Below are positions 17,001 to 32,000 of a stretch of 64,000 nucleotides of DNA, in pieces. A model generated the notes under the pieces. It saw only the letters and a program-made list of their open reading frames with translations, did no database searches and had not been told where the DNA came from. Numbering within the stretch: the stretch's first letter is position 1; each line of letters begins with the position of its first letter. The position numbers and the translations under genes were made by a program. Source of the stretch: Bolinopsis microptera (lineage: Eukaryota; Ctenophora; Tentaculata; Lobata; Bolinopsidae); contig NC_087082.1 in NCBI RefSeq assembly GCF_026151205.1, positions 13,859,365-13,923,364 on the forward strand. Reading direction: 5' to 3'.

Positions 17001-20000
17001 CGAAATCATCAAATTAATTGATTGCAGAATTAGGAAATTAATTCTATAATTTCGAAATTTGCAAGCTAGAAGTAAAATCGTCTCATTGGTTATAAAACGT
17101 ACATCATGAATTGGCTGATTCAGGTAGATCGTTCCAGATTTATCTCATTGACATCCGGGCCTCTCCCAAGGTTTCTATTGGTCGAGAGAACGTTTTCTCA
17201 TCGCTGAATGGCCGTTAAATTGTATTGCTTTAATACATCTCTGTATATTGTCTGAACTAGGCTTTATCAGTAATGCTTTATACATTCTGCCCTCATTTGG
17301 GAAACGTTTTCTCTTTCACAGCTGCTAATTTAACAATTTTATCAAGCTTTAAAAAAAATTGTAACTTCGGGTAATATTGTTTCATGATATGCATTATTAT
17401 TAAACTCAATTTGAATTCCCAAAAAACCTCTACAAATTTCCCGAAGAATCTTGCCTGTGTATGCATTATGCACCTGAATAAAATTTGTGCAGTTTTTGAA
17501 AATCTCGAAAACGAGGACGAAAAATTCACTTCAGATTAAGTGAAAGACTAACCGTTATTTCTTAAATCATCCATTTATCATAGTTTTGTTTACTGTAGAA
17601 AATTTTGTTTCATGACCAATCAATTCAATCAATTTAATGCTATTTGATATTTCGGTTATCGGTGTAAGGATAATGCGTTGTTGTTATTTGACAAGAATTT
17701 GAATTAGAAAAAAATGAAGGTCTATAGAAACTTTAAATATCACCAACCTGAATTCGATTCATTCCTAAGTAGAGTCTTTGTAACTTTTGGAGAGGGTGGA
17801 AGTTGGACAAACTCTTTAACCTGCGTATGAGGTTTTATTAACTAGTTCCGGAGACCAAATAAAATGCACGATGATCCAATATCTAAGCGAGGTCCCTCTT
17901 ACTTTTAATTTCACTTTCAACATCTACATTAACCTACATAACACTATTAAGAATCATTTCCACTTTCACTTTCACATTGAGTAACTTCCTGTCCAGATGA
18001 GGTTGGGAGAGCAGATGAAAAGCACCATGTTTCAAGCAATGTCCCGGATAACCGAGTCGTTTGAGAGTGTGGGAAAGAACACAGAAGCTGAGGAGGACAC
18101 GGGAAATGCGGACAACTACTCTGTCAGAGAGGCTAGGTCACGTGATAATTGGAAGATTTATGAGCTCATGTCTTCCTTCTTCCCTGAGGACGGGGAGTCC
18201 CAGGAGGAGAGCAGTAAGTGTGACGGAGAGACTATTGTATCTGCTATATAATCTACTGAGAACTATTTAGATACTATAATTAAATAATGATCTAATACTA
18301 ATTAGTTACTATAATTAGAGCAGGTGGTTCACACTTTATCTTATGATATCTGAACCCTGTTAACTAATTATTATAATTAACAAATTAGGTGAACTATAGG
18401 GGCTAGGTGGCCTAGTGGTTAGAGCATCCGCCTTCTGCACAGAAGGTTCAGGGTTCGAATCCCAGTGTCACCTAGTCTAGGGAGTAGCTAAGGATCCATT
18501 GGATCTATGCGATGAGCGATCTCCTCGGTCGACTCAGTCGAATGATAGGAAACTTAATTGAGGGTTAAATGAGGAGGGGTACCTGTTAAAAGTTCAAGAA
18601 ACTTCCTAGGATACCCCTTCAGTGCATACTGTAAACATAGTGCTATTATACTATAACTATCTTCCCTCAGAGCTATACTTCTCGGAACACGATCTCCTGG
18701 AAGCTTTGTTCCATCCTAATCCAGTCACCCAATCTATAGTGGCTGTCTATAACTCACAGGGAAATGAAATACTGGTGGGCTACTGTCTTTACAACATTGT
18801 TAAGATGGACACAATCTTCCTTCTTGTAGAGGACATCTTTGTACATCCTACGTTCAGGTAACACCAACTTATTTCTTACAGAGGAGATTTTTTCGCTCTA
18901 TCCCCTCAGCTTTCTCGAGAAATTTTTCAGCAATAGAACAGATCAATGTATAACCAGATCTCAAAATCCCACTCTGAGTAGCTTTTTTCTTGTTTTGGAG
19001 AAATTACTAATATTATAACAAACTGACCCATCCAGAGATACGTGGGTATCCAGAAAGATGCTAGCTTACATCCAGAACAAGTTGGTATCTCTACTTAAAG
19101 CTACGGAGGAACCATATAAGATATTGAGGTTAGTAACGCACAATCATCTCACAATTTCTGTTACTTTGTCATTCAGAGAATTCAAAATATACGTAGGTAA
19201 TACTTTTTGTAAACTTTTTATACGCTGTTTATACGCTGTTTATCTGTTTACAATGTAAAATGTACAGATGGGACGCTAATGATTACAAGGACAAGAGAGT
19301 TAACTTCTACAGCAAACACGGAGCCAGATTATTTGCGGACTACAAGCCGGTTCTAAAGGAGGAGCAAGAAAAACAGGACACGGTTAGTGGGGGGGGGGGG
19401 GGGGTGACACGGTTAGTAGGGGGGGGGGGGGGGGGGGGTTTGACACGGTTAGTAGGGGGGGGGGGGGGGTGACACGGTTAGTGGGGGGGGGGGGGGGGGG
19501 TGGGGGTGACACGGTTAATGGGGGGGGGGGGGGGGGGTTACAGTACACTGATAACTGAACCTCACCACAGAGACCACGTGTGCACCACTTTTCAGAGAAA
19601 TGTGATTCATTCGACATTCTCTAAACTCTCCTAATTTAGACACTTGATAGTTCCTTATTATCACATATTATGTTATATATGTATATCGATATTACTTTGC
19701 ACCCTGTAACCCCAACCCCTAACGTAACCCCCACTGCACTCCCCCCCTCCCCCATCTCTAACCCACACTCTTGTCCCAGTTAACGTACGACGTGTTACCC
19801 TGCAACGTAAAGGGACTGAAGAAGAACAAAACACTAGCAAACATGAAACTGTCATCCAGTCCCCACAGACAGCCACTGTGCAGGGAGAGGTGTAGATCAC
19901 TTGTACCCACTGACACTACTAAAAATGCTTTGTGATCGGGAGTGAAAGTGAAAGTGAAAGAGAAACTGATAAAAAGTATTGAACAGTGGACAGTTGATTA

Positions 20001-29000: not shown

Positions 29001-32000
29001 CCAGCTCAGCACACGAATTGTACCTGTAAAGAAAAGTAAAGATGAGAGAAATCAGCTGAATTTATTGCAGAACTGTGATCGAACAGACTCAGCACGAGAA
29101 AATAAGGATTAAATTAGTAAATAATATAGAATAATCGAGAACAGAACTGATACTGCCAGTAAAGCGTATCGAATAATTATATTCATATTTCAGAGTGAAA
29201 GTGAAAGAGAAACTAACCAGACGTCCCCAACCTGCCCCTCTTCAAGCCTAACATTTCCACCACACTCCAGTTCTAACATGAGTTTGCTGATTGTTCCTTC
29301 CACCTCCTTCTCTATGTAACGTCTGCAAATGTACACATAAAATGTTTGAAGTGAAATTTGGACAACTTTTTGATTCTTCGATCGTATTTTTATGCGGTTA
29401 ATGGAGAATTAATATTTAAGTTTTCAGTTATGAGATGATAATTATGATTAGGAGGCAATTACTTGGCGTTGTGGTGCCACAAGTCTACTTTAGAGATCTC
29501 TCTAATCCAATGCTCCACCCTAGCCTCTAAAGCTAGTAACTTGTCAACTATCTGACCATGCTCTTGTTCACCTGCAAAGTGAAGTGAAAGTGAAATAGGG
29601 ACCTAATAACTTGGAAACTATCTGACCATGCTCCAGTTCATCTGTCGTTATTATCTAGATTACCAATTATCGTGACAACATCACAGTTAATGCTAGTTAA
29701 AACAGTAATGCATCAGAGTTAAAACAGATGGAAAATCCCAAAGTGAAAGTGAAATAGAGACCTAATATATTGTCAACTATCTGATCATACTCCTGTTCAC
29801 CTGCAAAGTGAAAGTGAAAGTGAAATAGTTCAAACCTAATATCTTGTCAACTATCTGACCATGCTCCTGTTCACCTGCAAAATAAAAGTGAAAGTGAAAT
29901 AGGGTCGTAATAACTTGTCAGTACTATCTGACACGTTCCTGTTCACCTGCAAAATGAAAGTGAAAGTGAAATAGGGACCTAATAACTTGTCAACTATCTG
30001 ACATACTCCTGTTCACCTGCAAAATGAAATTGAAATAGGGACCTAATAATTTGTAAACTATCTGACATGCTCCTGTTCACCTGCAAAATGAAAGTGAAAG
30101 TGAAATAGGGACCTAATAATTTGTAAACTATCTGACATGCTCCTGTTCACCTGCAAAATGAAAGTGAAAGTGAAATAGGGACCTAATAACTTGTCAACTA
30201 TGTGACCATGTTCATCTGAAGTTGTAGTTACCTAGATGGCTAGATTACCAATTGCTGTATCATGACAGCATCACATCACACATGTAAAGCTATAGAGTTA
30301 AAACTGAGGAACTGGTTCGAAAAATCCAAACAGTAGTTCTGGTTCCTCTGAGTATAAGTAGGAAACATTAGAAATTGACTGCACCACAATTAAAATAAAA
30401 TCGAGCGAAGCGATAAAGTTTATCGGATAAACACAATCAAATAAAATGTAAAAGTCAAAGTCAAATTAAAAGTGAGACTGACTATTCTCGCGATTTTGAA
30501 TGGGAAACTGACTATTCTCGCGATCGTTTCTGCTCCGGTTGATGTCTCCAATACAACAGTTCATAACGTGTACCCTCTCGTAGGGCAAGGCAGCCAGCTT
30601 GTTTCGCTCTTCACACAGTCGCGCTTCCATCTCCGCGCGATTGCGCTGCAGCATCTTCACGCGCATCGTGTAGTACATCTTCTTCTTTTGGACTGTTGCC
30701 TGATGAGGACTCAAATTAATCATAACATTGATGATTGATCAACTTTGTGACTGATAGCTTATAGCTATCATATTATAACCTCAGCTTACTTCACAACTAA
30801 CCTCAGCTAACTTATCACTTAACCTCAGCTTACTTCACAACTAACCTCAGCTAACTTATCACTTAACCTCAGCTAACTTCACAACTAACCTCAGCTAACT
30901 TATCACTTAACCTCAGCTTACTTCACAACTAACCTCAGCTAACTTATCACTTAACCTCAGCTTACTTCACAACTAACCTCAGCTAACTTATCACTTAACC
31001 TCAGCTTACTTCACAACTAACCTTAGCTAACTTATCACTTAACCTCAGCTAACTTCACAACTAACCTCAGCTAACTTATCACTTAACCTCAGCTAACTTC
31101 ACAACTAACCTCAGCTAACTTATCACTTAACCTCAGCTTACTTCACAACTAACCTCAGCTAACTTATCACTTAACCTCAGCTAACTTCACAACTAACCTC
31201 AGCTAACTTCTGAAGATGACCGTTACTGATGTCAATAGTGTCAAGATGACTGAGGAAGGGGAGGTGGTAGAGAAGGTGAGTAGAGTAGTTACACAGGGAA
31301 CATACCGGGTTACTTTGGTACAGAGGGTCTTTCAACCCCACAAACCTGCAAATGTTTCAATTTTACTTTTCTGTGAGTTTTTATTCATATTCATATTTTA
31401 CACTATAGTCGTTAATGGTATGTATATACGGTTTTATTATATATGTGACTGTGTCCGGTGTCACTTTAATATGGGATCGAAATCATTAGCCAACTAACTA
31501 ACAAAGTAATTACCTTAACTTGGACAGTTCCACAAGATTAGTTAGATCTTTAAAAGAACTGAGCATGTTACCAGACAAGTTCAGACTCTCAAGGTTAGGA
31601 TGCCCCTTCAGAGAAGATCCTATCTCTGTTATCTTGTTTGAAGCTAAGTTTAGGTCAGTCAGGGACACTAGTTTGGAGATTCCCTCTATCTCTCTGATGA
31701 GATTGTTGTTCAGCCATAGGGTATTTAGGTTATATAGATTTGAAATCCCCTGTATCTTTTGTATTTGGTTGGAGTACAAATACAGTTTCCTGAGTGATTT
31801 GCACTTTTCCAATCCCTCGAGGGTCCTGATTTTACACTCACAGATCCACAGTTTCTCCAGAGACACACAAGCGGAGAGACCCTGTACTCTATCAAGAGGC
31901 AGGCTCATGATCTCCAGTTCTCTGAGTCCGGGAAAGAAGTTGTATCGAATCATTTGGCAGTGTCCGGAGAAGAAATTCTCTAGTCTGGGTACAGACCGCT

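Follow-up and report, generated by a model that had tools for sequence, protein, structure and literature searches.

Tandem repeats lying across exon–intron boundaries have precedents. The human gene IFI6 (G1P3, 6-16) is reported to carry a minisatellite that supplies several splice donors (Turri et al. 1995, cited in PMC4526556), variable internal tandem repeats are reported at the exon–intron boundaries of human genes in segmental duplications (PMC2812944), and tandem copying is linked to the making of introns in fission yeast, where introns were formed by tandem repeats (PMC3629103), and in potato and flies, where introns were gained via tandem duplication (PMC4974935, PMC2891723). Here, we describe five tandem duplications, each with a splice junction inside the repeat unit, within ~12 kb of the genome of the ctenophore Bolinopsis microptera. 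They lie in a window of 64,000 nucleotides (the whole stretch that was analysed; contig 11, NC_087082.1, 13859365–13923364) of a 264.65-Mb assembly of 232 contigs; four are in a leucine-rich repeat (LRR) gene read as LRRC9 and one is in an acetyltransferase-like gene. All five had been pointed out in the original prediction and all are present, but its further statement that no such class had been described is contradicted by the IFI6 minisatellite and by the human and fission yeast reports (PMC2812944, PMC3629103).

IFI6 and the present cases are alike in that minisatellite units supply donor sites at the end of an exon. They differ in that the IFI6 units are reported as used donors giving several mRNAs, whereas the sites described here are predicted and most of the other copies would break the reading frame. 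The genes of PMC2812944 likewise carry tandem repeats across exon–intron boundaries, detected in many genes with Tandem Repeats Finder (TRF); that study ties those repeats to novel introns and alternative splicing by transcripts, whereas the present cases are predicted from sequence. In intron formation by tandem copies, as here, a segment holding a splice signal is copied, but here the copying affects one end of existing introns. A literature search, mainly of titles and the beginnings of abstracts, found no junction-crossing minisatellites in ctenophores and nothing on the crowding of array edges described below, which is no proof of absence.

We lean towards reading the five arrays as private minisatellites, each founded by a duplication that took in a splice junction by chance, the product of a process that would be blind to junctions and bounded by selection, with overflow into the exon tolerated.

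Repeat units that hold a splice junction

The two genes and the five cases (A–E) are listed below in window coordinates.

20131..32356, minus strand: LRR gene read as LRRC9, 25 exons listed (gene finder and curation)
17997..19889, plus strand: acetyltransferase-like gene, predicted exons
19377..19538, plus strand: case A, acetyltransferase donor after 19382, with 6 exon bases in the array
28181..28331, minus strand: case B, exon 9 donor at 28283 (exon 28283–28455), with 49 exon bases in the array
29529..30206, minus strand: case C, exon 5 acceptor at 29571 (exon 29463–29571), with the acceptor and 43 exon bases
30477..30524, minus strand: case D, exon 4 donor at 30513 (exon 30513–30699), two copies 30 bp apart
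30776–31209, minus strand: case E, exon 3 donor at 31198 (exon 31198–31345), with 12 exon bases in the array

In all five cases, the repeat unit holds the end of the exon, the splice site and the start of the intron (in case D over 18 matched bases only, which TRF misses at a score of 50). Taken singly, the repeats are far beyond chance, except for the short case D. The unit of case E is 44 bp long and consists of two 22-mers, and 20 donor-like sites follow one another at 22-bp spacing from 31198 to 30780, the exon 3 donor being the first. Case B is a 50-bp unit present three times with a single mismatch, in one copy, and the units of case A are ~29–36 bp long with long G runs. Uninterrupted G runs are also found elsewhere in the window (33 G at 12040–12072 and 37 G at 48409–48445), besides those in each unit of array A.

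Case C is more elaborate, comprising seven copies of a ~70-bp unit including the real one, one at the exon and six in an array at 29739–30206, with spacings of 70, 64, 70, 72, 74 and 229 bp. Between the real copy and the main array lies a spacer, to which a second stretch on the far side of the array is related (alignment score 67, against 45 for the best of 300 shuffles); case C is therefore a nested duplication that took at least two duplication steps and not one simple array. The earlier description of units that start in the exon and run across the splice site accordingly holds in that the junction is inside every unit, but in case C the run is interrupted by the spacer.

For the reading frame, the exon was simply extended to each alternative site (in cases E and C, to sites scoring at least 4). 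Every other donor scored at this level in case E brings in a stop, as do all seven other acceptors so scored in case C, and in case B, the donors 50 and 100 bp on lead to a stop and a weak site 3 bp on stays open. Since the other sites nearly all give stops, the credible site for the protein in cases B, C and E is the exon-proximal one, essentially alone in keeping the frame.

The units are unrelated in sequence between the five sites, and those of B and C, the two that can be searched cleanly, each have one match in the 264.65 Mb, at their own place. A single transposon family therefore does not explain the cases, as had been maintained from the outset, and an introner-like dispersed repeat was rejected on the ground that the B and C units are not widespread in the genome. 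Array E has ten further partial matches (67–78 %) at seven places genome-wide; in the four places read in part, these are not copies of one element but other short-unit arrays with a common GAGGTT-like word. One of these relatives (L028) crosses a donor, with a frame open to the junction and an exon missed by the gene finder, two (L027 and L029) stop near acceptors of coding exons, and for one (L030, with flank L049), no exon was seen in the part read. They serve as examples only, because picking arrays by their likeness to a donor-rich array cannot test enrichment.

The minus-strand gene that carries cases B–E was predicted with a gene finder and then curated by hand. Its exons 1–21 (32356 down to 22114) form a single open frame; exons 22–25 (to 20131) are less secure, and the exon 22 donor is misplaced in the curated model. 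Pfam domains LRR_4, LRR_8 and LRR_9 lie within its first 783 residues, and the solved structures matched by its product are other LRR proteins. We read the gene as LRRC9, the name given in the original prediction, which fits; no search here proves the name. An array of the hexamer AAAGTG/CACTTT at 26873–26918 abuts the exon 14 acceptor of this gene, as if it were its pyrimidine tract; a second such array lies at 15037–15111, and short runs are also scattered through the gene.

The acetyltransferase-like gene shows a weak GNAT match (PF13508, 23.2 bits against a cut-off of 27). It had been described as nested inside LRRC9, but its span lies beyond the last identifiable LRR exon, which ends at 20131. 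An open frame on the plus strand at 23700–24340, inside an intron of the LRR gene, is a better candidate for a nested gene.

Junction crossing and array edges in other genes

Training of the gene finder, which was then run on the window, used 26 further loci of this genome, 10 kb each. The loci (14 dynein, 8 myosin, 3 ABC and 1 kinase) were selected by protein family and not by repeats, and training was seeded with 72 exon segments, 13.8 kb in all, that match dynein, myosin, ABC-transporter and kinase families. The finder regained 93 % of the seed bases in frame, with 371 introns in the last training round, and the final model predicts 374 introns in the 26 loci.

Junction crossing is not peculiar to LRRC9 and occurs at predicted junctions of other genes. 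Counting a junction as crossed when a duplicated segment spans it and at least 4 bp match to either side, we found that 9/598 junctions of the better-supported introns are crossed in the 26 loci (5/299 donors and 4/299 acceptors), or 14/748 when all 374 predicted introns are included. Three doubtful junctions were kept among the nine (L001 and L015, low-complexity; L020, a weak acceptor), and two more in the wider set of 14 come from a spurious mini-exon in L009. Two genes give well-supported examples: in the one closest to dynein axonemal heavy chain 6, 62-bp units with ~50 exon bases cross a junction, while a gene matching dynein axonemal heavy chain 3 (its top chain is labelled otherwise) has a 49-bp unit at a donor and a 51-bp unit at an acceptor.

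Crossing arrays at these predicted junctions are no commoner than blind placement predicts. For arrays defined by self-match, 4.3 donor and 5.0 acceptor crossings were expected in the sample and 5 and 4 were observed. TRF (period at least 8, score at least 60) returned 99 arrays in the 26 loci, 90 of which were assigned to predicted introns, and the null distribution was obtained by placing each array at random in its own intron in 3000 shuffles. One array in L009 had been misassigned via the spurious mini-exon; its correction changes the donor crossings from 6 to 7 and the arrays with edges within 15 bp to 34, against 19.9 expected. With this correction, there are 7 donor and 2 acceptor edges 4–60 bp inside exons, without an excess of crossings, the expectation being 4.8 (p=0.19) and 4.7 (p=0.96) with a 20-bp overhang allowed, and 10.9 and 11.0 with a 60-bp overhang.

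What is in excess is edges just inside the intron. At 7–15 bp from the junction, there are 9 edges at donors and 11 at acceptors, against 2.5 each expected with a 20-bp overhang, 1.7 and 1.8 with a 60-bp overhang and 3.5 and 3.5 with none (p from 0.0067 down to 0/3000 shuffles). Raw per-base edge densities overstate this peak, because few introns reach far from a junction. When every array that has an edge no more than 15 bp from a junction is counted, crossings included, the figure is 33/90 against 19.0 expected, a count reached in 0/3000 shuffles, and at wider distances it is 35 against 21.5 (20 bp), 39 against 23.9 (25 bp) and 39 against 26.2 (30 bp). The 15-bp excess persists where the intron minus the array measures at least 100 bp (26/81 against 13.3) and when the period is 15 or more (22/58 against 11.7), and it is present in the better-supported introns (27/69 against 16.5). 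The test proposed in the original prediction, whether array edges coincide with junctions more often than in shuffled controls, was thus positive in the 26-locus sample for edges near junctions, but the excess is not one of crossings. Antisense predictions, taken as a control, gave no significant excess (9/78 against 6.7, p=0.21); this control used all predicted introns, whereas sense genes were required to have 240 coding bases.

In the three genes that were aligned to solved proteins, 13/24 arrays lie near junctions against 5.8 expected, a figure biased by the choice of these genes for such arrays; the other 23 loci gave 20/66 against 13.3 (p=0.0145). Aligned to cytoplasmic dynein 1 heavy chain, five of the six near-array introns of the cytoplasmic dynein gene (L011) fall in ungapped stretches and one borders a gap; 3/3 of those in one myosin gene (L017) fall in ungapped stretches and 4/5 of those in another (L019) fall in aligned stretches. 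LRRC9's own TRF arrays lie near junctions in 2/4 cases, against 1.4 expected. The cytoplasmic dynein gene also contains a 4.4-kb array with a 19-bp unit (L011, 3675–8092), which fills most of one intron.

Two other measures were dropped as evidence. In the 26 loci, 0.9 % of points in exon interiors and 10 % of those in intron interiors lie in tandem duplications, and setting the 9/598 crossed junctions against the latter figure would suggest depletion; edge positions replaced point coverage because long arrays dominate coverage. The second measure was a genome-wide count of tandem donor words. Tandem triplets of the donor word AGGTTAGT occur 2299 times, against 94 for the word reversed (~24 times), and AGGTAAGT gave 958 against 0; however, the donor-dead word AGTGTAGT gave 6625 against 269, the same ratio as AGGTTAGT, so the contrast reflects the make-up of the genome's arrays and not splice sites, and its use as proof of junction seeding was ruled out. 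Among nine AGGTTAGT array flanks, 4/9 border an exon that looks coding, at donors in L032 and L033 and at acceptors in L035 and L038, and among nine control array flanks, only L046 has a weak prediction at its edge; with one flank per array, and one of them (L031) beginning inside its array, these are too few to weigh. As an observation in its own right, the ~24-fold preponderance of AGGTTAGT- and AGTGTAGT-type tandem words over their reversals points to a strong directionality of the arrays that is unrelated to splice sites.

Weighing the explanations

On the reading of private minisatellites, tandem duplication, by slippage or unequal exchange, would strike introns blindly, regardless of junctions, whereas in exons such repeats are rare, as the low coverage of exon interiors (0.9 %) shows. 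A duplication that spans a junction would be tolerated, since splicing still takes place at the outermost copy, and the surplus copies would turn into intron. Arrays would fill the free intron up to the bases protected by selection on the donor and acceptor signals, and for this reason their edges would crowd 7–15 bp from the junction. The excess at that distance speaks for splice signals as the limit on the arrays, and not for junction seeding. The crowding could arise by unequal exchange, by deletion of unique flanks or by homogenisation, and a bias of duplication toward intron ends may be its source. More tentatively, we propose as a picture for this genome that private minisatellites overwrite introns to the last protected base, sometimes copying the junction, with edges crowding at 7–15 bp to ~3–6 times the level of blind placement.

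Junction-crossing repeats would let an intron grow by copying the edge of an exon with the protein unharmed, a neutral route to change in gene structure. If the crowding of edges is upheld with RNA-supported genes, it would provide a simple gauge of the amount of intron sequence that can turn over freely. Should minisatellites indeed overwrite introns, the onset of selection on splice signals would be visible in the array edges, and the turnover of minisatellites would be a main force on gene structure in this genome.

Several results weigh against this account. At a distance of 10 bp, the edge count is 22 against 16.5 (p=0.067), which is not significant, and the distance bins were fixed only once the edges were known. 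The excess does not recur in the rest of the window, with its poorer gene models, which gave 3/11 against 2.6 (case A included) and 0/9 against 0.7. Every junction is predicted, and dynein and myosin genes make up 22/26 loci. The exon-proximal copy is not the sole usable one everywhere: the donor 100 bp on in case B scores 5.6 against 4.0 for the frame-keeping donor, the second copy of case D is in frame and open and several alternative sites of case A stay open. Finally, LRRC9 stands out, with 4/49 junctions crossed against the 9/598 of the sample (Fisher p=0.0125, about six times the sample odds) and 4 crossings against the ~0.6 predicted from the density of its own interior arrays (Poisson 0.003; by the self-match sum, 0.3 donors and 0.3 acceptors expected, 3 and 1 observed). 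Both LRRC9 excesses are post hoc, because the window was flagged, and the gene chosen, for having crossings.

The last of these results, together with the surplus of edges near junctions in the sample, is what can be said for the idea that the arrays are seeded on splice junctions, with R-loops, transcription-linked breaks or microhomology, for instance, making tandem duplication more frequent there. We consider this unlikely. The sample's crossings show no excess at either kind of junction under either overhang, the supportive-looking contrast in donor words fails its control and the local junction process invoked in the original prediction is left with LRRC9 alone exceeding its background.

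Selection favouring redundant splice sites, with several copies in use to buffer or regulate splicing, seems to us improbable. Half of the 20 donor-like sites of case E score the same as the real donor or nearly so, the open copies in cases D and A would be usable and the repeat copies of human IFI6 are reported as donors (PMC4526556). However, the stops that follow nearly every other scored site in B, C and E, where only the weak site 3 bp off in B is open, speak against the redundancy that had been proposed, as does the lack of an excess of crossing arrays.

It is very improbable that some of these introns were themselves born by tandem duplication of an AGGT-holding exon segment, as in the Rogers model. 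The units of B and E do hold AG|GT, and 49 of the 50 bases of the B unit are exon sequence, but the acceptors lie 240 bp past array B and 76 bp past array E, the other ends of the introns are unrelated to the array, and the donor in case C is 306 bp before its array; both splice sites were not found to come from one unit.

That the gene models are wrong, and the junctions not real exon ends, is the least likely explanation of all: the junctions are predicted and the gene finder did place spurious mini-exons in array C, an extra exon in array B and the 12-nt exon in L009, but the curated exons form one open frame across all four LRRC9 junctions, the antisense control is without a significant edge excess and near-array introns elsewhere lie mostly inside ungapped alignments to solved dyneins and myosins.

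Other duplications and dynein frames

Towards the far end of the window, regions 55070–55820 and 57212–57962 contain the same tandem repeat and identical open frames 2142 bp apart, suggesting a recent local duplication of ~2 kb. Elsewhere in the genome, matches to dynein heavy chain at C3:8952495-8953706 and C1:6101794-6103008 fall within open frames that run to 3357 and 3703 codons, respectively, unlike the other dynein genes of this genome, which are split into many exons.

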